64,000 nucleotides of DNA. Origin: Dokdonella sp. GTDB taxonomy: Bacteria; Pseudomonadota; Gammaproteobacteria; Xanthomonadales; Rhodanobacteraceae. The stretch covers positions 108,273 through 172,272 of the forward strand of contig JAHCAR010000007.1 in assembly GCA_019634795.1 (NCBI GenBank), written 5' to 3'. This document shows positions 7,514-61,050 of the stretch, one piece after another. The notes below the pieces were generated by a model. The model worked only from the letters and a program-made list of their open reading frames with translations. It had not been told where the DNA came from and ran no database searches. A program made the position numbers and the translations under genes. How positions within the stretch are numbered: position 1 is the stretch's first letter; each line of letters begins with the position of its first letter.

Positions 7514-8056
7514 TCACCGTTCGTTCTCGGGCTTGTCGAGGGTGATTTCGCCGGTCAGCCAACCGACGTTGATCTTCCACTCGCGTTCGCCGAGGACCAC
7601 GGCGATATTGCCGCCGGTCGAACTGCCGTCGGGGAAGAAGCGGATGCCTCCGGCTTTTTCGCCGGTCAGTTCCTTCTGCGCCGTGGTCAGGCGCAGGGCC
7701 ATGTCCTTGGGCAATTCGATTTCGTTGCGGCCCGGCGCCTGGTAGGTGTTCTTCTCGAGATCGAGGACCAGCACCTTCTGCTCGCCCTTGACGATGGCCT
7801 GGCCGCGCGTATAGCGCAGGGCCGCGACCAGATCGCGGCTGGCCGCCTGGATGCGCGCCCCGGAAAGGCTCTTTGCGAACGAGAACGCGACGACGCTGGC
7901 GACGATGCCGATCAGTACGATCACGACGATCAGCTCGATCATCGTGAAGCCCCTGGAGGAGCGGGGAATGGAGAATGGAGAATGGGGAATGGGAAGGGAC
8001 GAGCGTGGCGATACATCGCGAGGATCGGCCAGTTCGCGATGCGTCGAGTCCTCCAT
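7514..8056 (-). CDS. gspH: type II secretion pseudopilin GspH with repeat-derived leader (xps copy)
   Basis: Minor pseudopilin. The mature part starts at FTMIELIVVIVLIGIVASVV after a Gly. The sequence directly 5' of this point is the pyrimidine arm of the 7-nt repeat, read in frame as LPIPHSPFSIP, so the leader is 30-45 residues and unusually long. No ATG, GTG or TTG in frame lies nearer than the ATG at 8056; another ATG at 8095 lies in the other repeat arm. Neither has a clear Shine-Dalgarno. The mature domain looks intact. Either the long leader is tolerated or a non-standard start is used. Confidence 0.85.
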   Translation of the reverse strand: MEDSTHRELADPRDVSPRSSLPIPHSPFSIPRSSRGFTMIELIVVIVLIGIVASVVAFSFAKSLSGARIQAASRDLVAALRYTRGQAIVKGEQKVLVLDLEKNTYQAPGRNEIELPKDMALRLTTAQKELTGEKAGGIRFFPDGSSTGGNIAVVLGEREWKINVGWLTGEITLDKPENER

Positions 8057-8107
8057 CGGCAGCGTATTGCTCAACGCCGATTCCCTATTCTCCATTCCCT
8101 ATTCCCG
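7963..8107. repeat. inverted pair of 7-nt repeat arrays at the gspG-gspH joint
   Basis: Arms at 7963-7994 and 8081-8107 (GGGAATG and CCCATTC types with TAGGG variants) are complementary around an 86-nt middle. The gspH-side arm is read as protein in the GspH leader. In the xps operon this is one of two places where neighbouring genes do not overlap. Confidence 0.87.
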
Positions 8108-8112
8108 GCCTC

Positions 8113-8535
8113 TCATTCCCAACTCCCGTAATCCTTGTTCGTGCTGTCGCCGCCGGGCTTGCCATCCTTGCCGAGGAAGATGATGTCGAAGTCGCGGCCG
8201 GCATCGCCGGGCTTCTTGTAGAGGAACGGATGGCCGAACGGATCCTTGAGGTCGGTCTCCTTGGCGTAGGGACCGAGGCCATCGCGCTTGAGCAGGTCCT
8301 CGAGCGAATTCGGATACGAGCCGACGCTCATCTGGTACTGCTCGACCGATCCGGCCAGTTTCTTGACCTGGATCTCGCCGGCCTTGTACTTGCCGCCGCC
8401 GAAGGTGTCCATCATGCCGCCGCCGACGATCGTGATGACGATGCCGAGCAGGACGATCACGGCGATCATTTCCATCAGGGTGAAGCCCGCGGCGCGCGGG
8501 ATCGGGCGCAGGTTGCGCAGGGATCGGTTGTTCAT
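8113..8535 (-). CDS. gspG: type II secretion major pseudopilin GspG (xps copy)
   Basis: Main subunit of the pseudopilus. The leader MNNRSLRNLRPIPRAAG is cut before FTLMEMIAVIVLLGIVITIV. The C-terminus has the calcium-loop-like segment DGKPGGDSTNKDYGSW and an inner LKDPFGHPFLYKKPG motif typical of GspG. The ATG at 8535 is chosen because AGGAG lies 7 nt upstream; an ATG at 8550 overlaps the gspF stop as ATGA and may help coupling. It is 140 residues, the usual length, and differs clearly from the second GspG at 60538. Confidence 0.95.
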   Translation of the reverse strand: MNNRSLRNLRPIPRAAGFTLMEMIAVIVLLGIVITIVGGGMMDTFGGGKYKAGEIQVKKLAGSVEQYQMSVGSYPNSLEDLLKRDGLGPYAKETDLKDPFGHPFLYKKPGDAGRDFDIIFLGKDGKPGGDSTNKDYGSWE

Positions 8536-8546
8536 GATCGAACTCC

Positions 8547-9764
8547 TCATTGAATCGAACTGGTCAGTTTCAGGATCGGCAGAATGATCGCCATCATGAT
8601 GATCGCGACGACCACGGTCATGACCACGGTCGTCGCCGGCACCAGGGCGGCGAGCAGGCGCTCCAGCGTGTTGCGCACCTCGACGTCGAAGGTATCGGCG
8701 ACCTTGAGCAGCATCGTGTCGAGTTCGCCGGATTCCTCGCCGACGCTGATCATCTGCAGGGCCAGCTTCGGAAACTGCTTGGACTGGGACAGGGCGAAAC
8801 CGAGGCCGCTGCCGGTCTTCACTTCCTCGCTGGCCTTTTCGACAGCGATACCGAGGAAGGAGTTTCCCATGACGTTGCGGGCTACATGCAAGGCGCCGAG
8901 CAGGGGTACGCCGTTCTTGAGCAGGGTGCCGAGCGTGCGCGACAGGCGCGCGGTCTCGAGCTTGCGCACGAGTTCGCCGGCAATGCGCATGCGCAGCAGG
9001 CGCTCGTCGATGGCCAGGCGGCTGTCCGGATCGGCCAGCTTGCGCCGGAACCAGGCGATGAAGAAGACCAGTCCGGCCAGCATCAGCCACCAGAAATGCT
9101 GCAGGGTCGAGCCGACGCCGACGACGATGCGCGTGAGCAGCGGCAGCTCGACGTCCATGTCGGCGAACATCTGCTCGAACTGCGGCACGACGACGACGAG
9201 CAGGACGAACAATGAAACGAGGACCATGCCGACGAGGAAGGCCGGATAGATCAGGGCATTGATCACGCTCGACTTCAGCGCACGCGAACGCTCGAGATAG
9301 TCGGCCAGGCGCCGCAGCGTGTCTTCGAGCGAACCGCCGGCCTCGCCGGCGCGGACCATGTTGACATAGAGGCGTGAAAACGTGCCGCGCTCCGCTTCGA
9401 GCGCATCGGACAGGGTGGAACCGCCGCGGACCAGATCACGCACGCGTTCGAGCAGGTTGCGCGCCTTCTCGCTTTCCGGCAGGTCGAGCAGGATCTGCAG
9501 GGCGCGATCGAGCGGCTGGCCGGCGCCGAGCAGGGTCGCCAGCTGCTGGGTGAACTGGACAATCTGCGCCTCGCTCAGGGTCGGCCGCTTCATCAGCGCC
9601 GCGAGCAGGCCGCCAGAATCGACACTGTCGGCATCGCGCACGTCGAGCGGGATGTTGCCGGCGTCCTGCAGCTTGCTGATGACCTCCTCGTGCGAGGCCA
9701 CGTCCATCTGACCCTCGAGGGTCTCGCCGGACGGCGTGACGGCCTTGTAGTGGTAGAGGGTCAT
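8547..9764 (-). CDS. gspF: type II secretion inner-membrane protein GspF
   Basis: Polytopic platform protein around which the pseudopilus is assembled. Two GspF/PilC domains of about 120 residues are visible, the first near residues 70-190 and the second near 270-390, with hydrophobic segments at FLVGMVLVSLFVLLVVVVP, LMLAGLVFFIAWF and TVVMTVVVAIIMMAIILPIL. The 405-residue length is standard. The ATG at 9764 lies about 13 nt from a heptad repeat arm and has no purine-rich Shine-Dalgarno; the preceding bases are cytosine-rich. Confidence 0.95.
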   Translation of the reverse strand: MTLYHYKAVTPSGETLEGQMDVASHEEVISKLQDAGNIPLDVRDADSVDSGGLLAALMKRPTLSEAQIVQFTQQLATLLGAGQPLDRALQILLDLPESEKARNLLERVRDLVRGGSTLSDALEAERGTFSRLYVNMVRAGEAGGSLEDTLRRLADYLERSRALKSSVINALIYPAFLVGMVLVSLFVLLVVVVPQFEQMFADMDVELPLLTRIVVGVGSTLQHFWWLMLAGLVFFIAWFRRKLADPDSRLAIDERLLRMRIAGELVRKLETARLSRTLGTLLKNGVPLLGALHVARNVMGNSFLGIAVEKASEEVKTGSGLGFALSQSKQFPKLALQMISVGEESGELDTMLLKVADTFDVEVRNTLERLLAALVPATTVVMTVVVAIIMMAIILPILKLTSSIQ

Positions 9765-9777
9765 GGGATGGGAAGCC

Positions 9778-9943
9778 GGGATTCGGGATTCGGGATTCGG
9801 GATTCGTTTGTGCGCCGGGATTCGGGATGACCAGCCGTTCGGCTGTTGAAAGCCGAGATTCGGGATTCGTCAAAAAGAAAGACAATCGCAAGAGTGCGCG
9901 GTCGCGCTCCTGCGAATCCCGAATCTCGAATCCCGAATCCCGG
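9778..9943. repeat. inverted pair of 7-nt repeats (GGGATTC type) between gspE and gspF
   Basis: Arms 9778-9806 and 9913-9943, GGGATTC units with the complement GAATCCC, face each other across about 106 nt; additional single units stand at 9815 and 9852. This copy uses the ATTC variant while the others use AATG. It splits the operon between the ATPase and the platform gene. Confidence 0.87.
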
Positions 9944-9951
9944 CCTCACGA

Positions 9952-11697
<1,746 letters not shown>

Positions 11698-11700
11698 CAG

Positions 11701-12342
11701 TTACTCCTGCGCATCATCGTTTGGACCCGGCAAACCGGCCGCCGGTTCCGCAACAGGATGCACCAGGGACTCGATGAATGCTCGGTTCAGGCCGATCCAG
11801 AGCGCGACCGGCATCACCGCGGGCAGGATCAGATAACCGAATTGATAGGCCAGGGCGATGCTGTCCGGGGCGATTCCCGCGCCGACAATCGCATTGGCGC
11901 CGGCCGCTGCGGAGTCGAAGGCCAGCATCTTGAACGACTCGGCGATGACGCCGAAGGCCTGGGCCAGCCACATCACGCTGAGCGCGATCGCGAACTGCGC
12001 GAGCCGGCGTCGGATCGTGATCGGCGTGGCCATGGCCAGCCCGCTGAACAGCGGCAACGAATAGCCGTAGAGCAGCGGATTCTGCACGAGCACGAGCTCG
12101 CCGATGCCGCTGCGCCCATCCGGGGCAACCTGGTTGACCAGCAGGCGCGTGGTCACTTCCATGTTGTGGCCGTTCTGGACGACATCGGAAAACAGGTTCG
12201 GCCAGATCGACAGGAGGCCCAGCTTGGCCATCTGCACGACCGGCCAGACCAGCGGCGAGGCGAATGCGAACCAGATGAAGAAGCTCAGCGGCAGCCAAAG
12301 GACGGCGCGCAGGCCGAGGCCGCGGATCGGCGACATTTCCAT
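11701..12342 (-). CDS. multipass membrane protein, probably exosortase H-associated
   Basis: A 213-residue inner-membrane protein with about four hydrophobic segments: VLWLPLSFFIWFAFASPLV, LLYGYSLPLFSGLAMATP, LAQFAIALSVMWLAQAFGV and YLILPAVMPVALWIGL. It has no cysteine, so it is not itself an exosortase, which needs a catalytic Cys. The pattern agrees with what I remember of proteins annotated as exosortase H-associated in Lysobacterales; I cannot confirm this without a profile search. The ATG overlaps the purL stop as TGATG, and gspE starts 4 nt after its stop, so it is co-transcribed with both. An IPTL-CTERM protein, the usual exosortase H substrate, is encoded at 31705. Confidence 0.55.
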   Translation of the reverse strand: MEMSPIRGLGLRAVLWLPLSFFIWFAFASPLVWPVVQMAKLGLLSIWPNLFSDVVQNGHNMEVTTRLLVNQVAPDGRSGIGELVLVQNPLLYGYSLPLFSGLAMATPITIRRRLAQFAIALSVMWLAQAFGVIAESFKMLAFDSAAAGANAIVGAGIAPDSIALAYQFGYLILPAVMPVALWIGLNRAFIESLVHPVAEPAAGLPGPNDDAQE

Positions 12343-15300
12343 CAGTTGACCCACTCGCGTGCGTTGCGGAACAGGCGCAGCCAGGGCGAGGCTTCACCCC
12401 ATTCGCGCGGATGCCAGCTCATCTGCGAACTGCGGAAGACGCGCTCAGGATGCGGCATCAGGATCGTGATGCGACCGTCGGCGGCCGAATAGCCGGCCGC
12501 ACCGTCGGCCGAGCCGTTCGGGTTGAGCGGGAAGCGCTCGGTCGGCCGGCCGCTGTTATCGACATAGCGCAAACACGGCGTGGCCTTGCGCGCCGCCGCC
12601 GGGCTGTCGAAGACGACCCGGCCTTCGCCATGGGCAACCACCACCGGAATCCGCGAGCCGGCCATGCCGCGCAGGAAGATCGAGGGCGATTCGGACACAC
12701 CGAGGGTGACCAGTCGCGCTTCGTACTGCTCGGAGAGATTGCGCTCGAAACGCGGCCAGTGCTCGGCGCCCGGGATGATTTCCTTGAGTCCGGACAGCAT
12801 CTGGCAGCCATTGCAGACGCCGAGGGCGAAGTGCGATGGATCGGCGAAGAATTCGGCGAACTGCTCGCGCAGGGCCTCGTTGAACAGGATCGAGGCGGCC
12901 CAGCCGCGACCGGCGCCGAGCACGTCGCCGTAGCTGAAGCCGCCGCAGGCGGCGAGGCCGCGGAAGTCGGCCAGCTTCCGGCGCCCGCTCTTGAGGTCGC
13001 TCATGTGCACGTCGACCGCCTCGAAACCGGCGCGGGTGAAGGCAGCGGCCATCTCGACCTGGCCATTGACGCCCTGCTCGCGCAGGATCGCGACGCGCGG
13101 CCGGCTGCGACTGGCGACGAAGCGGGCGCACAGGTCCTCGTTGATGTCGAAGCTCAGACGCGGGCTGATGCCGGGGTCCGATTCGCTGGTCCGCCATTCC
13201 AGTTCGGCGTCGGCGCAGACCGGGTTGTCGCGCAGGCGCTGCATGGCATGGCTGGTCTCCGACCACATCGCCATCAGTTCGCTCCATTCCCAGCTGGCGA
13301 CACGTTCGCCGTCGTGGCGAATCTTCAGCTTCATGCGCGAATTCGGCTGGCCCACCCGCGCACAGAGCTTGGCCAGGCCGTGATGCTCGACCAGGGCAAG
13401 GAATGCACTGCGGTCGCGTTGGCGAATCTGCACGACCGCGCCGAGTTCTTCGTTGAACAGGCCACGCAGCATGTTGTCGGCCCAGCCGCCCAGTTCGATA
13501 TCGAGGCCGCAATGACCGGCCAGCGCCATCTCGATCAGGGTGACGATCGCGCCACCGTCGGAACGGTCGTGGTAGGCGAGCAGCAGGCCTTCGGCGTTGG
13601 CCTCCTGGATGGCATTGAAGAACGCGCGCAGGCGCGCCGGATCATCGACATCGGGCGGCAGGTCGCCGGCGCGCAGGAAGACCTGGGTCAGCACCGAGCC
13701 GCCGAGGCGGCCGCGGCGCGCACCGAGATCGATGATCCAGAGTTCGCTGTCGCCCTGATCCAGAATCAATTGCGGCGTCAGCGCGCGCCGGGCATCGCTG
13801 CTGCAGGCGAACGCGGTGGCGATCAGCGAGACCGGTGAAACGGTGTGCTGTTTCGACTCGCCCTGGGACCAGCCAACCTGCATCGACATCGAATCCTTGC
13901 CGACCGGGATCGAGATGCCGAGCGCCGGACACAACTCCATGCCGACCGCGCGCACCGCGTCGTAGAGGGCCACGTCTTCGCCCGGATGATCGATCGCCGC
14001 CATCCAGTTTGCCGACATACGCACCTCGTCGAGGCGTACCGGCGCCGCCGCCAGGTTGGTCAGGGCCTCGCCGACCGCCATGCGCGCCGAGGCGGACGCA
14101 TCGAGCAGGGCCAGCGGGGTGCGTTCACCGATCGCCATCGCCTCGCCGGCCTGGCCGCTGAAATCGTTGAGGGTCACCGCACAATCGGCCACCGGCACCT
14201 GCCAGGGACCGACCATCGGGTCGCGCGAGCACAATCCGCCGACGCTGCGATCGCCGATCGTGACGAGGAAGGACTTGCTGCCGACGGCCGGGAAGCGCAG
14301 CACGCGTTCGATCGCCTCGTGCAGTTCGATGCCCTCGGTATCGGCGATGATCGAGAGTTTCTCGACGATGCGCCGCGAGTCGCGCTGCATGCGCGGCGGC
14401 TTGCCGAACAGGACCTCGAGCGGCAGGTCGATCGGGTGATGACGGGAATCGGGAATGGGGAATCGGGAATCGGTGAGCACAAGCCTGCGTTCTTCGGTGG
14501 CATGGCCGACGACCGCGAACGGGCAGCGTTCGCGCGCGCAGATCGATTCGAACAGCGGCAGATCGGCGGGGCGCACGCCGAGCACGTAGCGTTCCTGCGA
14601 CTCGTTGCACCAGATCTGCATCGGCGACAGGTGCGGATCGTCGCTCGGAATGCGTTGCAGCTCGAGCTCGCCACCGACATTCGAGTCGTTGAGCAATTCG
14701 GGGATCGCATTGGACAGGCCGCCGGCGCCGACGTCGTGGATCGAGACCAGCGGATTGTCGGCGCCGCGCGCGCAGCAGGCGTCGATGACTTCCTGGCAGC
14801 GCCGCTGCATCTCGGCGTTGTCGCGTTGCACCGAGGCAAAGTCGAGCTCGGCCGAGCTGGTGCCGGCGGCCACCGAGGAGGCGGCGCCGCCACCGAGGCC
14901 GATCAGCATGGCCGGGCCGCCGAGCACGATCACGCAGTCTCCGGGCTGCAGAGTGCGCTTCTCCACATGCGAGGGGCGCAGGTTGGCCAGGCCGCCGGCG
15001 ATCATGATCGGCTTGTCGTAGCCGCGCAGCAGGCCGGTCTCGTCGGTGCCGTGCTCATAGGTGCGGAAATAGCCGCCCAGGCACGGACGACCGAATTCGT
15101 TGTTGAATGCGGCCGCGCCGATCGGTCCGTCGCGCATGATTTCATAGGCCGTGGCGAAGCGCGGCGGCAGCGCGCGCTCGGGCTCCCATGGACGCTGCAG
15201 CCCGGGAATGCGCAGGTGCGAGACGCTGAATCCGGTCAGGCCGGCCTTCGGCTTGCCGCCGCGGCCGGTCGCCCCCTCGTCACGGATCTCGCCGCCGGAC

Positions 15301-16211: not shown

Positions 16212-16275
16212 GGCAGTCGGATTGCAAGGGTCGCGAATGATAGCCGAAGCCGCGCCCCGGCGAGAACCCGAGCAT

Positions 16276-16298
16276 CCGTGGCCGGCCCCCGGCCACGG
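16276..16298 (-). other. perfect hairpin between dsbC and purL
   Basis: CCGTGGCCGG pairs with CCGGCCACGG across a 3-nt loop, 25 nt beyond the stop of the last dsbC-like gene. There is no U-tract after it on the minus strand, so it is at best a weak terminator or an RNA stability element. Confidence 0.5.
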
Positions 16299-16323
16299 GC
16301 GTCGCCCCTGTGCGCCGGAACGC

Positions 16324-17064: not shown

Positions 17065-17093
17065 GATGGTTACCTTTGGGGTGAGTGCCGTGC

Positions 17094-17825: not shown

Positions 17826-17843
17826 GGAATACCTCGGGAAGTC

Positions 17844-18605: not shown

Positions 18606-18758
18606 CAGGCGGGAATTTCCTCGAACATCCGGTCCTCAAGGGACCCTCGGAACCGGCGATGGTTCCATTGCAGCCCTTGATTTTCGCATGGACAGCTGCC
18701 CTGAGGAACCCCGATCGGGCATGCCTGGCCGGATCGCACCGACCCGTCCTGACACCGT

Positions 18759-19709: not shown

Positions 19710-19782
19710 GTGCGAGGGGCTCCCGTCTTGCGCGGGGTTGCGCAAACCCGGAGGCTAGCGCGAATTTCCCCCGCGCACGATC

Positions 19783-20226: not shown

Positions 20227-20285
20227 GCCAGAAAATCCACGGAATCTTTCGGCAAACCCGACGCTTGCGCCAAGCCGCGCGCCAC

Positions 20286-20317
20286 TATTCCCCATTCCCC
20301 ATTCCCCATTCCCGACC
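20286..20317. repeat. 7-nt repeat, single arm between RDD gene and lptG
   Basis: Four units of ATTCCCC/ATTCCCG-type sequence on the plus strand, in the 91-nt gap between two convergent genes. No matching inverted arm is seen nearby, unlike most copies. Confidence 0.85.
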
Positions 20318-22524: not shown

Positions 22525-22654
22525 CGGGGTTCTCTATGCCTTAGAATGAGCGGTTTGGCGCCTCGAAAGAATCGCGCGCAGCCCCGCAAGTCTAACGGCC
22601 CGCACGGCGCCGCGCGTGGCTAACGCCATTTTTTTCCCGAATCCGGAACCCGCT

Positions 22655-24555: not shown

Positions 24556-24560
24556 CCGAC

Positions 24561-24983: not shown

Positions 24984-24989
24984 CGGGGC

Positions 24990-25093
24990 GGGAATGGGGA
25001 ATGGAGAATGGGGAATGGAAGAAGCAAACTCCCCTGGTTCCCCGAGCTCTGCCCTTGATTTCCCCATTCCCTATTCCCCATTCCCGATTCCCG
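24990..25093. repeat. inverted pair of 7-nt repeat arrays before valS
   Basis: Left arm 24990-25019 (GGGAATG-type units) and right arm 25061-25093 (CCCATTC-type units) are complementary over about 28 nt, separated by a 41-nt middle. As RNA this would form a long stem-loop whose 3' side ends 3 nt before the valS start. The middle does not resemble those of the other copies. Confidence 0.88.
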
Positions 25094-25096
25094 TTT

Positions 25097-27925
25097 ATGG
25101 ACAAAAGTTTCGAACCCGGCCAGATCGAACCAAAGTGGTATGCGCAGTGGGAGGCCGCCGGCGCGTTCAAGCCGCACGGCAATGGCAGCCCGTATTGCAT
25201 CCTGCTGCCGCCGCCGAACGTGACCGGCACCCTGCACATGGGCCATGCCTTCCAGCAGACGATCATGGACGCGCTGTGCCGCTACCAGCGCATGCGTGGT
25301 TCACGCACGCTCTGGCAGGGCGGCACGGACCATGCCGGCATCGCCACCCAGAAGATCGTCGAGAACCAGCTCGCCGCCGAGGGCAAGACGCGCCACGACC
25401 TCGGCCGCGAGAAGTTCATCGAGCGGGTCTGGGAATGGAAGCAGGAGTCCGGTTCGACGATCAGCAACCAGATGCGTCGCCTCGGCGCCTCGATCGACTG
25501 GTCGCGCGAGCGCTTCACGATGGACGAGGGGCTCTCGGCCGCGGTGCGCCGCGTGTTCGTGCAGTGGTACCGCGACGGCCTGCTCTATCGCGGCCGTCGC
25601 CTGGTCAATTGGGACCCGGTGCTGATGACCGCGGTCTCGGACCTCGAGGTCAACAGCGAGGAAAAGGACGGCAGCCTGTGGTCGATCCGCTATCCGGCCA
25701 GTGATGGCGGGGAAGGCCTGGTGGTCGCCACGACCCGTCCGGAAACCATGCTCGGCGACGTCGCCGTGGCCGTGCATCCGGACGACGAGCGCTACCAGTC
25801 GCTGATCGGCAAGACCCTGAAGTTGCCGTTGACCAACCGCGAGATCCCGGTCATCGCCGACAGCTATGTCGAACGCGAGTTCGGCACCGGCTGCGTCAAG
25901 ATCACGCCGGCGCATGATTTCAACGACGCCCAGATCGGCGCCCGCCACAAGCTCGCGCCGATCGTCATCCTGACCCTCGACGCGAAGATCGTCGACGAGG
26001 CGCCGGAAGCCTATCGCGGCCTCGATCGCTTCGTCGCGCGCAAGAAGATCCTGGCCGACCTCGAAGCGCTCGGCCTGCTCGTCGAGACCAGGAAGCACAA
26101 GCTGCAGGTGCCGATCAGCCAGCGCACCGACGCGGTCATCGAGCCGATGCTGACCGACCAGTGGTTCCTCGACCTGACCAGCGACACGCGTGTCGACGGC
26201 AAGCCCGGTCCGGGCGGGCGCAAGGCGATCACCGAGCCGGCCCTGGCCGCCGTGCGCACGGGCGAAATCCGCTTCGTGCCGGAGAATTGGTCGAGCACCT
26301 ACACGCAGTGGCTCGACAACATCCAGGACTGGTGCGTCAGCCGCCAGCTCTGGTGGGGCCATCGCATCCCGGCCTGGTTCGACGAGGCCGGCAACATCTT
26401 TGTCGGCGAAGACGAGGCCGATGCCCTCGCCCATGCCGGGACCGAGCCGGTCGGCGCGCTGCGCCAGGACGAGGATGTCCTCGACACCTGGTTCTCTTCG
26501 GCGCTGTGGCCGTTCTCGACCATGGGCTGGCCGGCCAGCGGTCCGGTCAGCGAAGACGGCCACGTCGTCGCCGACTGGTCCAAGGACCAGGCCTTCATTC
26601 CGAGCGCGGTGCTCGTCACCGGCTTCGACATCATCTTCTTCTGGGTCGCGCGCATGGTCATGGCGACCCAGTACTTCACCGGCAAGGTGCCGTTCCGCGA
26701 GGTCTACATCAACGCCATCGTGCGCGACGCGGAAGGCCAGAAAATGTCGAAGTCGAAGGGCAACACGATCGACCCGCTCGACCTGATCGACGGCATCGAC
26801 CTCGAGTCGCTGGTGCGGAAATCGACCGCTTCGCTGCTCATCCCGCAGGTGCGCGAGAAGGTCGAAAAGCGCATCCGCAAGGACTATCCGGACGGCATCG
26901 CCGCGGTTGGCACCGACGCCATGCGCTTCACCTTTGCCGCGCTGGCCACCTACGGGCGCACCATCAACTTCGACCTCAAGCGCGCCGAGGGCTACAAGAA
27001 TTTCTGCAACAAGCTCTGGAACGCGGCGCGTTTCGTGCTGATGAACGTCGAATCGACCGAACCCGGCACGGCCCTGCCGGCGACGGCCGCCGAACAGTGG
27101 ATCCTGTCGCGCCTGGCGAGCACGCTCGAGGAAGTCGAAGCGCAGTTCGCGACCTATCGTTTCGACCTGGTCGCCCAGGCCCTCTACGAGTTCGTCTGGA
27201 ACGACTACTGCGACTGGTTCCTCGAACTGAGCAAGCCGGCCCTCAACGGCGGCGACGCCGAGGCGGTCCGCTCGACCCGGCACACCCTGATGCGCGTGCT
27301 CGAGGCGATCCTGCGCGCCCTGCACCCGATCACGCCGTTCATCACCGAGGAGATCTGGCACAACGTGGCCCCGCGCCTCGGCATCAGCGGCGATTCGGTT
27401 GCAAAACGCCCGTATCCGCGCAGCGTCGAATTCACCCCGGGTGTCGAGCCGGCTGCCGTGGCCGACATCGAGTGGCTGAAGTCGGTGCTCGGCGAAATCC
27501 GCCGCATCCGCAGCGAAATGAACATCGCCCCGGGCAAGCAGATTCCGCTGCTGTTCGCGCGCGGCAGCGCCGGCGATCGCCTGCGCATCGAGCGCTTCGC
27601 CAGCCAGATCGCCTTCCTGGCCCGCACCGAATCGCAGCGCTGGCTGGCCGAAGGCGAGCAGGAGCCGGCCTGTGCGTCGGCCATCGTCGGCGAGCTGCGC
27701 GTGCTGATTCCGCTGGCCGGCCTGATCGACCTCGAGGCCGAAAAGGCCCGCCTCGGCAAGGAAATCAAGCGCGTCGAAGGCGAGATCGCCAAGTGCAACG
27801 GCAAGCTCGGCAACGCGACCTTCGTCGCCAACGCACCGGCCGCCGTGGTCGAACAGGAACGCCAGCGCCTGGCCGATTTCACGACCACCCTGGACGGATT
27901 GCGCGAGCAGCTGGGGAGGCTCTGA
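25097..27925 (+). CDS. valS: valyl-tRNA synthetase
   Basis: Class Ia enzyme charging tRNA-Val, 942 residues. It has the HIGH-type motif HMGH near residue 46 ([10 protein letters not shown]), an editing domain, the KMSKSKGN motif near 548, an anticodon-binding domain and a C-terminal coiled-coil arm ([19 protein letters not shown]). The ATG at 25097 gives the normal MDKSFEPG start. The bases just upstream are the pyrimidine repeat arm (CCCGATTCCCGTTT), so there is no Shine-Dalgarno. Confidence 0.96.
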
Positions 27926-27931
27926 CGAGCC

Positions 27932-28085
27932 GGGAATAGGGAATGGGGAATGGGGAATGGGGAATGGGAACCGCGGGCTGAGGTCGGCTGCAGATCTGTT
28001 TCACCGCCCCTCGGCGTAAGGTCACCTCACGGTTGCCATTGCTTCCGGCATCTCCCCATTCCCCATTCCCTATTCCCCATTCCCG
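27932..28085. repeat. inverted pair of 7-nt repeat arrays before ettA
   Basis: Left arm 27932-27968 and right arm 28053-28085, about 30 nt each, complementary, around an 84-nt middle with no matches to the other copies. It lies in the 273-nt valS-ettA gap; the rest of the gap, 28086-28198, holds the ettA leader with a GGAG 5-8 nt before the start. Here the repeat does not touch the start codon. Confidence 0.88.
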
Positions 28086-29864: not shown

Positions 29865-30143
29865 CGGGAATCGAGAATGGGGAACGGGGAATGGGAATTG
29901 AAAGAGCCCCTTCCCCATCGATCGAATCGCGAGTTGCTCGACGAACGCTTCGAAATCCGGAGGGCGCGCACGAGATGACATACATGGATGCACGAGCAGG
30001 CGCGTGCCTGGTGATCCGGAACATACTCGAGGCTCCCGATCGATATCGCCCGGTCGTCGCACTTGTCGCTGGCCTCGATACGAGCGCTACGGCATCGTCG
30101 TTGCGCGTCTTCCCATTCCCTATTCTCCATTCCCCATTCCCGG
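29865..30143. repeat. inverted pair of 7-nt repeat arrays before pyrF
   Basis: Left arm 29865-29896 and right arm 30110-30143 surround a middle of about 213 nt, the longest of the set. The whole 290-nt ettA-pyrF gap is taken up by it. Open frames in the middle run into the repeat arms and look non-coding. The right arm ends 7 nt before the pyrF start. Confidence 0.87.
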
Positions 30144-41306: not shown

Positions 41307-42497
<1,191 letters not shown>

Positions 42498-42575
42498 GTT
42501 CCCATCCTCCGTCGGCTTAAGCCGTATTGATTTGACCAACCCGCCGGCCGGGCAACCCTGCCCTGCCTGCGTCTT

Positions 42576-42619: not shown

Positions 42620-42677
42620 GCCGCCGCGCCTCCTGCGCAGCGGATCTTGCCGATGGCGCGGCGGCCGCCGCCTGCGC

Positions 42678-43907: not shown

Positions 43908-43913
43908 CGTTGC

Positions 43914-55004: not shown

Positions 55005-55120
55005 GGCCGCATCCACCGGGCGCAGGCAGGCGCGCCCGTCTGCGCCTTCGCGCAGCTGCGTGCAGGCCTGGCCGAGGCCGGGCCGCCGGTTGCCATCCTT
55101 GCGGACTTGCGACCGTTCAT
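55001..55120 (-). CDS. possible 39-residue leader frame between ftsL and ftsI
   Basis: An ATG at 55120 with GAGGGGG 12 nt upstream opens a frame of 39 codons (start MNGRKSARMATGG) whose stop overlaps the ftsI ATG as ATGA. It is rich in Arg and Ala, and I know no relative. It could be a translated coupling leader for ftsI, or a remnant of an ancestral FtsI N-terminus in a shifted frame, or chance. The GTGAG/CTCAC palindrome around the Shine-Dalgarno might hide it. Confidence 0.3.
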   Translation of the reverse strand: MNGRKSARMATGGPASARPARSCAKAQTGAPACARWMRP

Positions 55121-55147
55121 GACTGTGAGTTCCCCCTCACTGCCGGA

Positions 55148-55417
55148 TCACCTTGTTGTGACGACCATCTCCGCGGCGCCCGGCGATACCATGCCGAGAC
55201 GACCGCGTGCGATCTGTTCTATTCGATTGTTTTCAGCCCAGGTCGCCTGCTCCAGTTGCAGGCGCCCGAATTCGAAATTCAGGTTGTCGCGCTCGTTCGT
55301 CAGCCGGTTCAGCTCGACGAAATGCCGCCGGCTCTCGTGCCGCGCATAGACCACGCCGACCGCACTGGCGATGACGGCGACGATCAGCAGCAGCATGGCG
55401 AACACGCGCAGCTTCAT
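55148..55417 (-). CDS. ftsL: cell division protein FtsL
   Basis: Small bitopic divisome protein that forms a complex with FtsB and FtsQ, 89 residues. One transmembrane helix (VFAMLLLIVAVIASAVGVVY) is followed by a leucine-zipper-like coiled coil (LNRLTNERDNLNFEFGRLQ) and a periplasmic end (ARGRLGMVSP). The size and position between rsmH and ftsI confirm a weakly conserved sequence. The start overlaps the rsmH stop as ATGA. Confidence 0.92.
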   Translation of the reverse strand: MKLRVFAMLLLIVAVIASAVGVVYARHESRRHFVELNRLTNERDNLNFEFGRLQLEQATWAENNRIEQIARGRLGMVSPGAAEMVVTTR

Positions 55418-56337
55418 GGCCGCTTCTCCGCAATGCGCAGCACGGCACTGCGCGATCTCGGATTCGCCGCCAGTTCGGCAGCGCCGGCGAAATGCTTGCC
55501 GAGCGCCCGCATCCTCGATGGCGGCGCTTCGAGCGGCGGCAGGTTGCGCCGGTTGCCCGGCTGCGCTGCCTGTTCGCGCATGAAGTGCTTGACCACGCGG
55601 TCCTCCAGCGAATGGAAACTGATCACGACCAGTCGCCCACCCGGCTTCAGACCCTCCAACGCCGCTTCCAGTCCGGCTTCCAGCGCCCCCAGTTCGTCGT
55701 TGACCTGGATGCGCAGCGCCTGGAACGTCCGCGTCGCCGGGTGCTTGTTGCGCTCACGGTGTCCGATCGTGCGGACCACGAGCTCGGCCAATTGCGCCGT
55801 CGACTGCAACGGCTGCTGTTCGCGCCGCTCGACAATCGCCCTGGCAATCCGTCGGCTCAGACGTTCCTCTCCGTAGCGCCACAACACGTCCGCAATCTCG
55901 GCCTCGGTCGCTGCAGCCAGCCATTCGGCGGCGCTGCGGCCCGAACCCGGATCCATGCGCATGTCCAAGGGACCATCCGCCTGGAAGCTGAATCCGCGGC
56001 TGGCGTCGTCAAGTTGCGGCGACGACACGCCGAGATCCAGAAATACGCCATCCATGCCCTGCCTCGCCTCGTCCCACTCGCCCATCGCGGCGAAATTGCC
56101 CTGCCGGATGCGCACGCGGGCATCGTTGCCGAACTCCCTGGCCGCCTGCGCGATCGCGCTCGGGTCGCGATCCATCAGCAACAAGCGCCCATTCGCGCCC
56201 AGCCGGGCCAGCAACTGCCGCGCATGCCCGCCGCGGCCGAACGTGCCGTCGAGATAGACCCCTTCGGGCCGAACCTGCATTGCCTCGATCACCTCCGCCA
56301 GCATGACCGGCGCATGCGTGAACTCCGCTTCCGCCAT
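55414..56337 (-). CDS. rsmH: 16S rRNA (cytosine1402-N4) methyltransferase RsmH (MraW)
   Basis: SAM-dependent enzyme methylating C1402 of 16S rRNA, 307 residues. It opens with FTHAPVMLAEVIEAM, the SAM site DGTFGRGGHA, then DLGVSSPQLDDASRGFSF and ends with the FHSLEDRVVKHFMR motif. The ATG at 56337 is 13 nt after mraZ. The gene overlaps ftsL. Confidence 0.97.
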   Translation of the reverse strand: MAEAEFTHAPVMLAEVIEAMQVRPEGVYLDGTFGRGGHARQLLARLGANGRLLLMDRDPSAIAQAAREFGNDARVRIRQGNFAAMGEWDEARQGMDGVFLDLGVSSPQLDDASRGFSFQADGPLDMRMDPGSGRSAAEWLAAATEAEIADVLWRYGEERLSRRIARAIVERREQQPLQSTAQLAELVVRTIGHRERNKHPATRTFQALRIQVNDELGALEAGLEAALEGLKPGGRLVVISFHSLEDRVVKHFMREQAAQPGNRRNLPPLEAPPSRMRALGKHFAGAAELAANPRSRSAVLRIAEKRP

Positions 56338-56350
56338 GGTTCCTTCTCGA

Positions 56351-56797
56351 CTAGAACTTGAGATCGAGCATGTCCTCGGTGATTTGCTCCTCGTTGATCG
56401 TTTCGCGGATCTTGGCCAGGTGGGCCTGCTCGCTCCAGAGCTCGAGCTTGTTGCCCATGCCGAGCAGGACCGCCTTCTTCTCGATACCGGCCGCGCTGCG
56501 CTGGCTGGCCGGCAGCAGGACACGTCCGTTGCCGTCCGGCTCGAGCGGGGTGGCCGCGCCGACCAGCTTCATCTGCAGGTTGCGATGCACGGTCTTGGCC
56601 TTGCTCAGCGCATTCACCTCGTCGCGCAACTGTTCCCACTCCTTTTCCGGGAACAGCCACAGACAGCCATGTTCAAACGGGTTGTAGGTGGCGACGAGGC
56701 GGTTTCCACTGAGCTTGGACACGGCTTCACGATGGGTCGCGGGAATGGATACCCGACCCTTGTCGTCCAGCGTGACTGCCGTTTCGCCCTGGAACAT
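56351..56797 (-). CDS. mraZ: transcriptional regulator MraZ
   Basis: AbrB-like DNA-binding protein at the head of the dcw cluster, 148 residues. Two SpoVT/AbrB domains are seen: MFQGETAVTLDDKGRVSIPATHRE and the second around EPDGNGRVLLPASQRSAAGI, with the MraZ core GCLWLFPEKEWEQL. It probably represses its own operon by binding four GTGG-type repeats directly before its start codon. The ATG at 56797 gives the conserved start. Confidence 0.97.
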   Translation of the reverse strand: MFQGETAVTLDDKGRVSIPATHREAVSKLSGNRLVATYNPFEHGCLWLFPEKEWEQLRDEVNALSKAKTVHRNLQMKLVGAATPLEPDGNGRVLLPASQRSAAGIEKKAVLLGMGNKLELWSEQAHLAKIRETINEEQITEDMLDLKF

Positions 56798-56799
56798 GA

Positions 56800-56834
56800 C
56801 CACCAAACACCACGAAAACCCACCGAAACCCACC
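56800..56834 (-). promoter_or_regulatory. MraZ operator: four GTGG repeats with 10-nt spacing
   Basis: On the minus strand GTGGG-TTTCG-GTGGG-TTTTC-GTGGT-GTTTG-GTGGT runs from 56834 to 56800, four boxes each 10 nt apart, so on the same face of the helix. MraZ boxes in other bacteria are direct TGGGN repeats with 5-nt spacers. The last box ends 2 nt before the start codon. This would cover the +1 and the ribosome site, allowing repression. Confidence 0.93.
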
Positions 56835-56860
56835 TTATGCCGCCGCCCATGGGCTGTCAA
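56832..56860 (-). promoter_or_regulatory. dcw promoter (mraZ promoter), sigma70 type
   Basis: TTGACA at 56860-56855, a perfect -35, then exactly 17 nt and TAAGGT at 56837-56832 as the -10. The predicted transcription start is about 56825, inside the first GTGGG repeats, so MraZ binding would block RNA polymerase. This is the best promoter visible in the window. Confidence 0.9.
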
Positions 56861-56995
56861 GGAGATTCCGCAGGCTCAATTCGCCGCTTTTGGCAGCCCG
56901 ATCACGCCTGAATCGAAGCAGGGAGGCGTGTCATCGGGACCGACACCGGGTTGCGGAGATGCCCGTGCCGGCATGGCGCTGCCCGGATTGGGCTG

Positions 56996-57661
56996 TCAGG
57001 TGCGTTCGCCGACCAGGATCAACGAGAGCGGCACGAACGTGCGGGGGTGCATCGGCTCGCGCAGCGATTCGATGCGCAATCCCGAATCGACGAACAGGCG
57101 CACCCAGGATTCGACGGTGCGGAAGTACCACGGCGCTGGCGCCTGGAAGTCCGCGTCGATGCCGCACCACGAGCCTTCGCGCCAGCCATCGCGATAGGGT
57201 TGCGCGGCATCCACCGTCGGCGGATGCAGGGTCTGCACGATGAGCGCGCCGCCAGCGGTGAGCAAATCCGGCATCTTCGCCAGGAGCCTGTCGACCGAGG
57301 CTTCGCCGAGCAGTGAAAAATTGCAAACGCAGACATCGAAGCGTTCGTCGAGCACGCCTTCGGCAAGCGCCTCGTGGCTGAACACCTCGAAGCGACCGCC
57401 GCCGGCGCGGCGCGCCTGCTCGACCAGGTCGGCGACCGCGTCGACACCGAGCACCTCGATGCCTTGCGCAGCGAGCGCGCGTGCCAGCCAACCCTCGCCA
57501 CAGCCGATGTCGAGCACCCTCGCCGGCTTGCGCGCGAGCACGGCTTCGACGACGGCGGCGTCGGTCGCCAGCAGCCGGCTGCCGATGCGGCCCTCGCGGA
57601 CCGCGCGCGTCCACGGTTCGCTGTTGGCTCGCCAGCGTTCGATGATCTCGGCGTCGTTCAC
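56996..57661 (-). CDS. class I SAM-dependent methyltransferase
   Basis: A 221-residue methyltransferase with the SAM motif VLDIGCGEGWLARAL and the following acidic residue in VLGVDAVADLVEQAR, motif DVCVCNFSLLGE and TLHPPTV. The target is unknown. The GTG at 57661 overlaps the stop of the gspK-like gene as GTGA, which places it in the same operon, and the mraZ promoter lies 135 nt beyond its end. A dcw-linked methyltransferase is common in Lysobacterales, but the secretion link here is notable. Confidence 0.85.
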   Translation of the reverse strand: MNDAEIIERWRANSEPWTRAVREGRIGSRLLATDAAVVEAVLARKPARVLDIGCGEGWLARALAAQGIEVLGVDAVADLVEQARRAGGGRFEVFSHEALAEGVLDERFDVCVCNFSLLGEASVDRLLAKMPDLLTAGGALIVQTLHPPTVDAAQPYRDGWREGSWCGIDADFQAPAPWYFRTVESWVRLFVDSGLRIESLREPMHPRTFVPLSLILVGERT

Positions 57662-58659
57662 CGGTTCGCCCGCGAAGTCAGCTTGCGGGCGAGGGCGGGA
57701 TTCGGCGCGTCCTCGGCGCCGCGACTGCGCTCGAGGACATGGACGCCGCCGCGCGCAGTACCGGTGACGCGTTCGAGCAGGCTGGAAAACGAGAACGGAA
57801 TGTCGTCGAGCGTGATCTCGCCACGGGCCAGGAAATAGCTGCTGGTGACGCCGAGACCAAGGCGATTTTCTGGCGGAATCCTGACGCCCTGGTTCTCGGC
57901 TTCGTTGAGGGCATTCTCGACCGAGATCCAGCGCGCCTGCCCGTTCTGACGGATGCGCAAGGCCAGGGCCTGGGTCATGCGCGAATCGAGGCTCATCAGC
58001 AAGGCCGCAGAGGCGGTATTGAGATTGAGCGCGGTCCCGGGCGGCAATGCACAGACTTCGGGCGCGAGGCGCGCATAGACCTCGTTGCTGATGCCGCGCA
58101 CGAGGCGCAGCTCGGAGACGTGGGCGAACACGCGGTTGGCGGTCCTGTATGGCACCGGTTGGGCCAGGTAGGCGCTGTCCTCGGCGCCGCCTTCGTTGTC
58201 GATGCTGCCATCGGCATCGAGCCAGTCGACGATCGCGCCGACCAGCGCGGGGTCGAGTTCGAGCGCGACCAGCAGGTTGTCGAGACGCCTGCGCCAGAGC
58301 GCGCGTTCGGCGGTCGAGGGTGACACGAGATTGTTCAGATTGAAGCAGCCGTTGAGGTCGGTCATGCGTGCGCTGAGCGTGCCGCCCGGCACCTGCTGTG
58401 GCGGCAACGGGATCGCCCAGCTGTCGCTGAAGGTGTCGAGATTCGGGCTCTCGTCGAGATCGCGCATCAGGACCTGGGCAGCGAACGCTTCGAGTCCCTC
58501 CGAATAGGCGATCGCCTGCTCGCCGCGCAGTACGTTGCGTGTGCGCGCCAGGGCGAGCTCGCCCCGATCGAGCAGCGACCCGATCAGGACCAGGGCCAGG
58601 GCCACGGCCAGCAGGGCAATCAGCAGGGCGACTCCGCGCTGTCGATGCGGGCCGTTCAC
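57658..58659 (-). CDS. gspK: type II secretion minor pseudopilin GspK, second set
   Basis: 333-residue GspK-like pseudopilin. Leader MNGPHRQRG, then VALLIALLAVALALVLIGSLLDRGELA, with the family SAM-like domain (DLNGCFNLNNLV, VDWLDADGSIDNEGGAEDSAYL) that binds calcium in other GspK proteins. The C-terminal half has LNLNTASAALLMSL. The sequence diverges strongly from the xps GspK at 5246, so this set is not a recent duplicate. The start overlaps gspJ of the same set. Confidence 0.9.
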   Translation of the reverse strand: MNGPHRQRGVALLIALLAVALALVLIGSLLDRGELALARTRNVLRGEQAIAYSEGLEAFAAQVLMRDLDESPNLDTFSDSWAIPLPPQQVPGGTLSARMTDLNGCFNLNNLVSPSTAERALWRRRLDNLLVALELDPALVGAIVDWLDADGSIDNEGGAEDSAYLAQPVPYRTANRVFAHVSELRLVRGISNEVYARLAPEVCALPPGTALNLNTASAALLMSLDSRMTQALALRIRQNGQARWISVENALNEAENQGVRIPPENRLGLGVTSSYFLARGEITLDDIPFSFSSLLERVTGTARGGVHVLERSRGAEDAPNPALARKLTSRANR

Positions 58660-59375
58660 GGGGTCGCTCCCGGCGGCACGCTGACGGTGCCCGGCACGGC
58701 CTGCGGAACGATGCCGGGAGTGCCCGGTGCGACCGAACCGCTGCCGCCGATGCCCTTCGGAGGCAAAGTCGATGGCAATGCCACGACACGGCGCAATTCA
58801 CCGAAGTCCTCGAGCACGAGTCGGAACTCGACCGCGCGCGGCAAGGCCTCGACGGCGGACTCGCGTGGCGGCCACTGGTCGCTCCAGTTGCCATTGGTGT
58901 CGAGGTAGCGCAGGCGCCACGCGCTGACCCGATCGACCAGTTCGCGCCATTGCGGAACGCTGCCGGCGGCGCGGTCGAGCACCGCATAGCGGCCGCGGCG
59001 CAGGCGCTTGTCATCGATCGCATAGAGCACGCGCTCGATGTTGCTGCGTGGTTCGGCGAGCGGGTTGGCGTAGCCGAGCCGGCTCAGCTCGATGCGCTCG
59101 CCGCTGCCGAGCAGGGCCGGCTGCAGCTCGCCGTAGTTGCCGCGCAAGGGCCGCGAGATGGCCTGGCGCAGGTCGCGTTCGAGATCGCCCATGCTGCGCA
59201 CGATCACAGCGAAGCGTTCCTGCTCGACGGCCAGCGCGGATCGCGCGCGCGCGATCTGCCCGAGCGCGCCCCAGGTGATCGCGGCCATCGCCGCGAACAC
59301 GACCAGGGCGACCAGGATCTCGATCAGGGTAAAGCCACGGTTCAGCGCGCGCCGTGGGCTCGCGGCGGTCTTCAT
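58656..59375 (-). CDS. gspJ: type II secretion minor pseudopilin GspJ, second set
   Basis: 239-residue GspJ-like pseudopilin: leader SPRRALNRG cut before FTLIEILVALVVFAAMAAITWGAL. The middle has SRPLRGNYGELQPAL and RYLDTNGNWSDQWPP, GspJ-like. The C-terminus is rich in Pro/Gly/Val (PGTPGIVPQAVPGTVSVPPG), an odd tail not part of the fold. It overlaps gspI and gspK of the set by 4 nt. Confidence 0.9.
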   Translation of the reverse strand: MKTAASPRRALNRGFTLIEILVALVVFAAMAAITWGALGQIARARSALAVEQERFAVIVRSMGDLERDLRQAISRPLRGNYGELQPALLGSGERIELSRLGYANPLAEPRSNIERVLYAIDDKRLRRGRYAVLDRAAGSVPQWRELVDRVSAWRLRYLDTNGNWSDQWPPRESAVEALPRAVEFRLVLEDFGELRRVVALPSTLPPKGIGGSGSVAPGTPGIVPQAVPGTVSVPPGATP

Positions 59376-59743
59376 GGCGAGGGTTGCTCGCTGCCGAAGC
59401 CGGTCAGGCTCGCGCTCGGCTGGTCCGAATCGGCGGCAAAGACCTGCACATCGAGACGGCGCATGTCGGGATCATCGGTCGCCTTCACTTCGAGCTGCCA
59501 GCGCCATTCGCGATTGGCCAGGCGGACCCGTCCGTCGCGCTTGCCAATAGCCGGCAACGGCGTGGCGATCCGGGTTTCGCTGAGCACGTTGGCCGCCACC
59601 CAGCCGGCCAGGGTGCGCTCGCGCAGGGCGTCGAAACTGCGCACCTGGCCACCGGCCGTGCGCGTCAGCGCGAGCAGGGCCAGGGCCACCACGACCAGGG
59701 CGATCAGCACTTCGAGCAGGGTGAAACCGCGCCGGCGATTCAT
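59372..59743 (-). CDS. gspI: type II secretion minor pseudopilin GspI, second set
   Basis: 123 residues, the usual GspI size, with leader MNRRRG cut before FTLLEVLIALVVVALALLAL. The middle contains VRSFDALRERTLAGWVAANVLSETR, a GspI hallmark. It overlaps gspH and gspJ by 4 nt. The C-terminus is Ser/Gly-rich. Confidence 0.92.
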   Translation of the reverse strand: MNRRRGFTLLEVLIALVVVALALLALTRTAGGQVRSFDALRERTLAGWVAANVLSETRIATPLPAIGKRDGRVRLANREWRWQLEVKATDDPDMRRLDVQVFAADSDQPSASLTGFGSEQPSP

Positions 59744-60306
59744 GGCCTGATGGCGACCCGGTCGAGCACGATGTGGCCGTCGGCTTCGCCGCGCAGCTCA
59801 TAGCGATTGGCGACATCGCCGAGTTGCAGGCGCAGCAGGAATGGCGACAGTTCGCCCGAGCTGAAGCAGACGATCTGCGGCGGTTCGCTGTCGCTTTCGG
59901 CCAGGCGCAGATCGCGACCATCGCGCAAGATTTCGACGCCCAGGCCGGGGACCCAGCTGCGCGGCCGCAGTTCGTTCTCGAGCGCGTCGCTACTCCAGCC
60001 GTCGAAGCCGAGACGGGTGAAGGCATAACCCCGCCCGTCCAGGCGCAGGCCGATCTCGCGCCCGGTCAGCTCGGCCTGGTGACAGGCGAAGTCGATCAGG
60101 CCCTGCAGGCGCTCCGACTCACGCGCCAGTTGCCGCTCGCCACTGGCCGTGGCGATGCTGATCGTGACCGCCAGTGCCAACACACCCACGATGACGACCG
60201 CGACGAGGATTTCGATCAGGGTGAATCCAACAATCACGGTATCAGGCGCAAAGCAACGGCGAAACCGGGTACCGACACGAGTGGCCCTTTGCTCTTGCAC
60301 CGGCAC
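59740..60306 (-). CDS. gspH: type II secretion pseudopilin GspH, second set
   Basis: GspH-like pseudopilin whose mature part starts at FTLIEILVAVVIVGVLALAV. The start is unclear: a GTG at 60237 leaves only a MIVG leader, unusually short and without basic residues; GTG at 60306 gives a 27-residue leader with several Arg; the open frame runs on to ATG at 60510. I chose 60306. The extra sequence to 60510 looks non-coding. The stop overlaps the gspI start as ATGA. Confidence 0.75.
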   Translation of the reverse strand: MPVQEQRATRVGTRFRRCFAPDTVIVGFTLIEILVAVVIVGVLALAVTISIATASGERQLARESERLQGLIDFACHQAELTGREIGLRLDGRGYAFTRLGFDGWSSDALENELRPRSWVPGLGVEILRDGRDLRLAESDSEPPQIVCFSSGELSPFLLRLQLGDVANRYELRGEADGHIVLDRVAIRP

Positions 60307-60537
60307 GCCATCAGGCGCAACACTTCGGACAGGCAGCGCAGAGGGACAAGCACGCCATTCCGTCCCGGTTAGCGGTGCGGGAACCACCGCAGAAAGTTCG
60401 ACGGGCAGCGCGATATCGGAACACTCGATACGGGGCGCCGACGTCCGGTTAACGCCATCAGGCAATTGTGATGGCGACGCGCTGCCGGCCCGGGTCCAAT
60501 TCATTGCCATGCCCCGCCAATCGCAGTGTCAACAGGC

Positions 60538-61050
60538 TCAGTTGTCCCAGTTTCCGATATCAGCAGCATCGCCATCGCCACCCGGTCGCCCGTCCGAGCC
60601 ATAGCTGTAGAGATCGACCTCACCATGCTGGCCGGGCTGCTGGTACTGATAGGGCTTGGACCAGGGATCCATCGGCAGGCGGTCGAGATAGGGTCCTTTC
60701 CAGTTCGGCGCCTCGGGTGAGCCCGAGGGCTTGGCGACCAGTGCCTGCAGGCCCTGTTCGTTGCTCGGGTAGCGGAAATTGTCCAGTTTATAAAGATTCA
60801 GCGCGGTGACGATGCCCTGCAGGTCCTGCTTGACCCGGGTGACGCGGGCCTCGGCGGGGCGCTCCATCACGCGCGGCACGACGATCGCGGCCAGGATGCC
60901 GAGGATGACTACGACGACGAGGATCTCGATCAGGGTGAAGCCGCGGGTGCGGCCGGGAATGGGGAATGGGGAATGGGGAATCGACAGAAGCGGCGCTGAC
61001 CTCAACGACTGCGTGGCAGGCGGGGCCAACTGCAAATCGCTGCCCGACAT
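60538..61050 (-). CDS. gspG: type II secretion major pseudopilin GspG, second set
   Basis: Main pseudopilin of the second set, with the classic GspG features: FTLIEILVVVVILGILAAIVVPRVM, RYPSNEQGLQALV, PMDPWSKPYQY and the calcium site GGDGDAADIGNWDN. This is the Xcs/Gsp type, more canonical than the xps copy. The leader is partly encoded by the 7-nt repeat ([11 protein letters not shown]), so the start is uncertain: ATG at 61050 is given, a TTG nearer at about 60999, and an ATG at 61101 are options. bioA is divergent. Confidence 0.85.
   Translation of the reverse strand: MSGSDLQLAPPATQSLRSAPLLSIPHSPFPIPGRTRGFTLIEILVVVVILGILAAIVVPRVMERPAEARVTRVKQDLQGIVTALNLYKLDNFRYPSNEQGLQALVAKPSGSPEAPNWKGPYLDRLPMDPWSKPYQYQQPGQHGEVDLYSYGSDGRPGGDGDAADIGNWDN
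60955..60982. repeat. 7-nt repeat array in the leader of the second gspG
   Basis: Four units GGGAATG/GGGAATG/GGGAATG/GGGAATC on the plus strand. It is read antisense as IPHSPFPIP just before the mature GspG sequence. No second arm is seen between it and bioA. Confidence 0.85.

Follow-up and report, generated by a model that had tools for sequence, protein, structure and literature searches.

Convergent, like-typed pairs of heptamer arrays in Dokdonella sp. as possible REPIN-like hairpins

What are the arrays of seven-nucleotide units that recur in a 64,000-nucleotide stretch of Dokdonella sp. (contig JAHCAR010000007.1, positions 108,273 to 172,272; hereafter the window), and what rule governs their arrangement? 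The arrays are built of tandem heptamers that begin with GGGAAT (type A) or GGGATT (type T). A preliminary description of the sequence had proposed that they keep a fixed orientation to genes and had known of no named family for them. Neither claim stands. The elements of the window belong to the family described as Xanthomonas GGGAATC repeats by Rehm et al. 2015 (PMC4692102), the only account of this repeat among the literature found, and the true regularity is the pairing and convergence of the arms, a G-rich arm standing before a C-rich arm, and not the orientation to genes. The two arms of a pair are nearly always of the same type, they share one anatomy with nearly invariant columns, their sites persist between relatives, and the type at a site can change in place.

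All eight array loci listed for the window are present where they had been placed, and the five described as paired are indeed inverted pairs. Their middles, put at 41-213 nt, measure 89, 110, 42, 92 and 215 nt by the array limits used here, and the remaining three loci carry single arrays. NCBIfam matches also bear out the gene names for XpsH/GspH, GspG, GspF, GspE, PurL, LptG, HolC, ValS, PyrF, the second GspG and EttA. The window contains 13 arrays of at least three units, as compared with 0 in 50 first-order Markov control sequences (maximum 0), and 16 arrays of at least two units against a control mean of 0.62.

The arrangement was analyzed in 44 segments of the own genome (G000; 3.87 Mb, 85% complete), 241 kb including the window, which hold at least 136 arrays; the segments were chosen through exact three-unit arrays among the matches listed, so that every own-genome array count given here is a lower bound. 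Neighbouring arrays, defined as lying within 400 bp, follow the order G arm before C arm (GC) in 55 cases, CG in 1, GG in 2 and CC in 3, and the sole CG case falls between two separate pairs. GC pairs take up 110 of the 136 arrays and 26 lie outside them, which bears out the expectation that pairs are much commoner than single arms. In the pair set of the relatives, double arms of like orientation were found as GG in 3 cases and as CC in 3. Such GG and CC double arms are as expected from nested insertion.

In the sense of the downstream gene, the purine-rich arm does lie 5' in all five window pairs, but this polarity carries no information. When the five pairs are read on the reverse strand, the G-rich arm again comes first and the C-rich arm last. 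An element of the form (GGGAATG)n...(CATTCCC)n has the form of its own reverse complement, and its polarity therefore holds for every gene on either strand; the window pairs flank minus-strand genes (2) as well as plus-strand genes (3), and the fixed orientation is a tautology of symmetry. Nor can a symmetric element reveal on which strand insertion was favoured, and it is a general caution that the way an inverted pair is oriented to genes is never evidence of strand bias. Even the purine bias is weak in the GGGATTC pair at 9778 (0.57 vs 0.43). The elements may have spread by a mobile element, as the same description proposed.

The arms of a pair agree in type. In the own genome both arms were of the same type in 55 of 55 pairs (44 AA, 11 TT), where about 63% would be expected if the arms were independent (p ~1e-11). 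Across all genomes compared, 116 elements comprise 61 TT, 54 AA and 1 mixed, part of them picked by similarity to type T; this applies to most of the 49 pairs from relatives (43 TT, 6 AA), which were found through similarity to a type T element. The likeness does not extend to private variants. In 33 pairs with four units in each arm, partner arms match at 24.27 of 28 positions, whereas shuffling the partners within a type gives 24.59. Since partner arms have no private variants in common, their likeness in type does not stem from recent copying between arms or from selected base pairing.

Read inwards, the arm consensus is GCC-(GRGAWTN)4-GNAARAGC. Exactly four units are present in 98 of the 136 arrays. 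On the outer side, 120 of the 136 have C at -1, 77 have C at -2 and 96 have G at -3. The inner side reads G-N-W-A-R-A-G-C, with G as the first base after the last unit in 131 of 136, and 59 of the 136 arms have the string A[AG]AGC or AA[R]RGC within 15 nt on their inner side, as compared with 90 of 2584 control 15-mers. Compact copies are hairpins of about 80-105 bp with a locus-specific loop of about 15-25 nt, and the loops of other copies are longer. Among 557 units, departures from the consensus G-G-G-A-W-T-N number 1, 68, 5, 1, 23 and 7 in columns 1 to 6, respectively, and column 7 is free. A few arrays of three or more units are outliers with ten or more units each, namely C38:88362-88486 and C52:90984-91066 in the closest relative compared (G059) and C23:93579-93654 in G073; the one at C38:88362 gives 13 overlapping three-unit matches in a row. 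These long arrays are probably slippage expansions and possible markers for strain typing.

The constraint on the columns is also apparent between species. Among the 13 pairs of orthologous arms (52 units) that have the same type in G000 and G059, columns 1, 3, 4 and 6 changed in 0 of 208 positions, column 2 in 7 of 52 and column 7 in 9 of 52, the difference between columns 1, 3, 4, 6 and column 2 having a Fisher p of 9e-6. Over all congeners, for which the comparisons are not independent, the corresponding values are 28/928, 34/232 and 67/232, and C-G exchange dominates the changes in column 7 (36 of 67). That columns 1, 3, 4 and 6 stay unchanged with 2 and 7 changing argues for sequence recognition and not for drift. 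The middle G is a free core position, which speaks against a G-quadruplex as the selected feature, and recognition of G-GAWT fits better. Base pairing was considered as well, because a long RNA stem in the leader of the downstream gene had been suggested. The predicted folds are very stable (z -4.7 to -13.5 in 7 elements), but pairing is not visibly selected. Covariation was rejected on the partner matching given above, and so was G-U asymmetry, as C-to-T changes that keep a G-U pair (3' arm, 11/73) are not commoner than pair-breaking G-to-A changes (5' arm, 9/78). Rfam gave 0 matches at gathering score in the window.

The sites themselves persist. Each of the 17 own-genome sites compared, taken from the window and from two other segments, is occupied in G059 as well, and so are 15 of 16 in G073. 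The holC-valS gap illustrates presence and absence of an element, the anchors being 7 bp apart in the array-less congeners G004 and G099 and 115 bp apart in the window. Type does change at these sites: 7 of the 17 show the other type in G059, two of them tuf-linked and not independent. Of 155 orthologous arm pairs, a count that leaves out duplicates and any arm less than 160 bp from the end of its segment, 71 differ in type and 54 in unit number. At the lptG stop there is, depending on the relative, nothing, a single T array, an A/A or T/T pair or a pair that by eye resembles GAGATC. Also by eye, G131 and G086 have similar pairs built on a third unit, close to GAGATC. The dominant type differs between G000 and its closest relative, three-unit windows of type A and type T numbering 126 and 28 in G000 and 72 and 183 in G059, where a few long arrays weigh on the A count.

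How is the type changed? At L185/L265 the two arms, GGGAAT in G000, are both GGGATT in G059. The outer flanks are still homologous (best identity 95%), and so is the middle, 162 vs 160 nt with an apparent gene start inside (68%, z 7.9; for short middles, the inner motifs conserved at either end inflate such z-values). The arms there have thus changed without replacement of the middle. In other type-switched elements the middles mostly align poorly between orthologues. Substitution was assessed in arm pairs whose two members each have four units and whose flanks are at least 85% identical. In 23 such switched pairs of G000 and G059, column 2 matches in 78 of 92 units vs 72.6 expected (reached by 80 of 5000 shuffles) and shared GAG units number 4 vs 1.31 expected (105 of 5000), and column 7 shows no match (29 vs 31.6 expected). 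A type change by point substitution of an otherwise kept arm is weakly indicated by column 2 and the GAG units and not by column 7. The two tuf genes of the own genome (EF-Tu; L170:5768-7044 and L171:344-1620) are followed by near-identical type A elements, and beyond these the sequences diverge. Both elements are type T in G059; the element is probably carried along when tuf undergoes gene conversion.

The reading that we favour, with a probability of roughly 0.45, is that the elements are REPIN-like non-autonomous hairpins read by a putative type-specific factor. Like REPINs, they are inverted doublets with a spacer and a predicted hairpin, and they occur in high copy. The four heptamers and AARAGC would be the recognition sequence of a trans-acting factor with a type preference, and this factor would require two like ends. 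The elements would lodge in gene gaps without harm, be inherited vertically and occasionally be replaced or rewritten in place by the other type; persistent site and changed type are observed, and the process between them is our proposal. Effects on neighbouring genes through RNA, such as termination or stabilisation, may be by-products or later use.

A number of observations weigh against this proposal. What speaks most clearly against recent transposition is the agreement at the 17 sites, none being occupied in G000 only when compared with G059, and in the other direction 44 of 48 sites of five relatives are occupied in G000 (5 additional sites have no G000 orthologue to compare). No target-site duplication was found at the elements. 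The purL array stretch is of equal length in five genomes, three of which have the array; with no length change against four relatives, this array is not an insertion. Absence is not always accompanied by a short holC-valS gap, as the array-less G121 has a gap of 91 bp. The loops of different copies are unlike by eye. Mixed elements exist, including the one among the 116 and, under looser detection, the holC-valS pair of G030 and a degenerate pair in G073. A search for a mobiliser among two candidate domains gave none. Y1_Tnp genes (RAYT domain) are present in 9 of 10 congeners, including the 3 without arrays, and missing in the array-bearing G110, and the fetched flanks of 19 Y1_Tnp loci in these congeners contain no array. 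A RAYT partner was accordingly rejected, its presence not following the arrays and adjacency being absent. A reverse transcriptase partner was rejected too: RVT_1 turned up in 2 of 10 genomes, namely G073 and the array-less G099, and neither in G000, at its 85% completeness, nor in G059.

The main rival holds that the hairpins are kept by the host at gene ends, as stable stems immediately after a stop codon or between two genes that end or protect transcripts, so that the hairpin is selected, its sequence is free and heptamer types and other hairpins take each other's place. By a crude gene caller, which took a minus-strand open reading frame in place of ettA and whose contexts and distances are rough, 49 of 136 arms have a stop and 47 a start as their closest outer gene boundary, and 36 lie inside genes; where a stop is closest, the G arm usually starts shortly behind it, at a median distance of 6 nt, with 29 of 49 at 1-10 nt. 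The persistence of sites in G059 (17/17) and G073 (15/16) suits this explanation, as does the position of several elements among tRNA, tuf and ribosomal genes. At several sites without heptamers, G030 and G110 have other palindromic sequence right after the stop (by eye), and Rehm et al. report that transcripts start or stop more often at arrays with four G-tracts (PMC4692102). The 47 arms nearest a start do not suit it, nor do the 8 start/start cases among the 55 own-genome pairs, which occur in all gene contexts (stop/stop 10, start/stop 10, stop/start 8, start/start 8, unclear 19). Pairing in the variable columns is not in excess, G-U asymmetry is absent, and a plain hairpin would require neither four heptamers that are always the same nor columns 1, 3, 4 and 6 without variation. 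We regard this explanation as unlikely. Somewhat more doubtful is that both arms are rewritten in concert and in place by type-specific machinery, each species drifting to its own dominant type. L185/L265 is the clearest case for it. If true, rewriting in place would mean that dispersed hairpins evolve in concert, and a reverse transcriptase of the RVT_1 kind, with none in G000 or G059, is not a likely agent of it. A long stem near the 5' end that controls the downstream gene, as the preliminary description had it, accords with the very stable predicted folds and with 5 of 5 window pairs lying before or at a gene start. The orientation being uninformative, 10 of 55 pairs standing between convergent gene ends and no sign of selected pairing being seen, such a function is very improbable.

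The published view is that the four G-tracts of each arm form G-quadruplex DNA or RNA and regulate the neighbouring genes. The preference for four units, seen here and by Rehm et al., and the circular dichroism spectra of that report (PMC4692102) are in its favour. Yet of the core columns the middle G varies most (68 of 557 units, as compared with 1, 5, 1 and 7 in columns 1, 3, 4 and 6), four intact GGG tracts occur in only 47 of the 98 four-unit own-genome arrays and in 97 of 214 over all genomes compared, A4 and T6 are nearly invariant although a G-quadruplex does not need them, and equal types in the two arms are not predicted. We judge this view improbable as the account of what is selected, and we give simple-sequence slippage with gene conversion, which would homogenise arrays within and between loci with no dedicated factor, the same low standing. 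Slippage would explain the unequal unit numbers in 54 of 155 orthologous arm pairs and the long arrays. It agrees with the C-G exchange in column 7, which unit shuffling predicts, with a purL array that arose in place and with the two tuf-linked near copies. The sharp peak at four units, the conservation of type and AARAGC motif, private variants that are not common to partner arms and the scarcity of hybrid arms (by eye) tell against it.

The elements of the window are collected in the table.

Table. Heptamer arrays in the window
Element	Position	Strand	Detail
Type A inverted pair, gspG/gspH joint	7964..8106		G arm 7964-7990, C arm 8080-8106, middle 89 nt
Type T inverted pair, gspF/gspE gap	9778..9941		G arm 9778-9804, C arm 9915-9941
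Single type A array within purL	14444..14470	+ (purL on minus strand)	Encodes DSRFPIPDSR
Single type A array, C-rich on +	20287..20313	-	6 nt from lptG stop codon
Type A inverted pair, holC (stop 24983)/valS (ATG 25097)	24990..25092		G arm 24990-25016, C arm ~25060-25092
Type A inverted pair, valS (stop 27925)/ettA	27932..28084		G arm 27932-27965 (5 units), C arm 28058-28084
Type A inverted pair, ettA (stop 29860)/pyrF	29866..30141		Imperfect G arm 29866-29899, C arm 30115-30141
Single type A array, 5' part of second gspG (minus-strand gene)	60955..60981	+	Directly ahead of GF..E prepilin motif

The G-arm side of the first pair lies directly ahead of the prepilin GF..IE motif of gspH, and an additional two-unit C array ends nearby at 8127. 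As the arrays at 7964-7990 and 60955-60981 abut the prepilin motifs of gspH and the second gspG, the start codons and leader peptides of these genes merit re-annotation. The 110-nt middle of the type T pair holds two extra two-unit GGGATT stretches and a GACCAGCCGTTCGGCTG palindrome. Inside some element middles, at 9817-9868 of the window and at several loci of relatives, there are GGGATGACCAGCCGTTCGGCTGTTGAAA and GTAGGAGC palindromes and other REP-like repeats. Within coding sequence, the variable hinge of valS (window ~27019-27100) has a type A arm with inner GAAAGAGC in G086 and a type T arm in G073, the hinges of the window genome and G059 have no arms, and those of G030, G110 and G131 have other in-frame repeat-like inserts, CTCTCCCGCCGGGAGA-like. 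Together with purL, where no length was added, these cases indicate that arrays can arise in frame in tolerant parts of proteins. The ettA-pyrF gap of Rhodanobacter sp. T12-5 (L041 ~11660-11776, by eye) has the layout of the window with a different unit: a purine-rich GAGTGAG-like array after ettA, GATAAAGC and a pyrimidine-rich array, then pyrF.

The comparison with Xanthomonas is the closest. Rehm et al. define a repeat as two or more tandem GGGANTN heptamers with at least one GGGAATC, and they count 186 and 183 repeats in two genomes, with a preference for four units and 70 (Xcc) and 75 (Xac) convergent inverted pairs (PMC4692102). Type A arrays with GGGAATC units fall within this rule and share the preference and the convergent pairs; the many window arrays of GGGAATG only and the GGGATTC arrays of type T fit GGGANTN and lie outside the strict rule. 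Dispersal through the genome is alike, and so is placement, the published repeats lying close to stop codons when on the coding strand and close to starts when on the opposite one. In 13 loci of X. hortorum examined of 30 fetched, many of them overlapping, we found 8 GC pairs and 0 CG, with arms as here including the inner CGNAARAGC motif. The parts of the published account available to us do not include the inner and outer motifs, like-typed arms, type change in place or the variable middle G. They give 83% of repeats as common to the two species and none found in other gammaproteobacteria, whereas here four-unit GGGAAT arrays occur in 42 of 147 genomes of the family and 7 of 10 in the genus, with patchy copy number. 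Four-unit GRGAWT arrays occur in 10 of 369 genomes of the class, comprising the own genome, G014 of the same family and eight from other families; G480, which is not of the window's family, has many of them (22 and 64 matches). The family has been in print for ten years with G-quadruplexes proposed and, in those parts of the account, no function found. Our results turn a vague question into testable ones: what factor reads G-GAWT four times, why the ends must be alike, and how a whole element changes type on its site. The middle G as a free position is a direct argument against the G-quadruplex view.

Other repeat systems are more distant. REPINs (Bertels and Rainey 2011, PMC3116915) are likewise extragenic inverted doublets that form a hairpin with a less conserved spacer, occur in several sequence groups per genome and are commoner as pairs than as singlets. 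They differ in being built on a 16-mer with REP, where the arms here are arrays of four 7-nt units, and no RAYT adjacent to an array was found in our material. The TAACTGA repeats of Beggiatoaceae (PMC4679880) are also intergenic 7-nt tandem repeats; they have another unit and are direct repeats, with one indirect case in the portion of the report at hand. The GTAG/CGTC palindromic repeats (PMC3733652) resemble our elements in forming dimers, in lying near coding regions, in termini that supply stops and in copies inside open reading frames. Unlike them, these repeats are tagged stem-loops of 20-40 bp, described in the available text with no heptamer arrays, and GTAGGAGC palindromes of the GTAG/CGTC kind occur in our elements as separate repeats within the middles.

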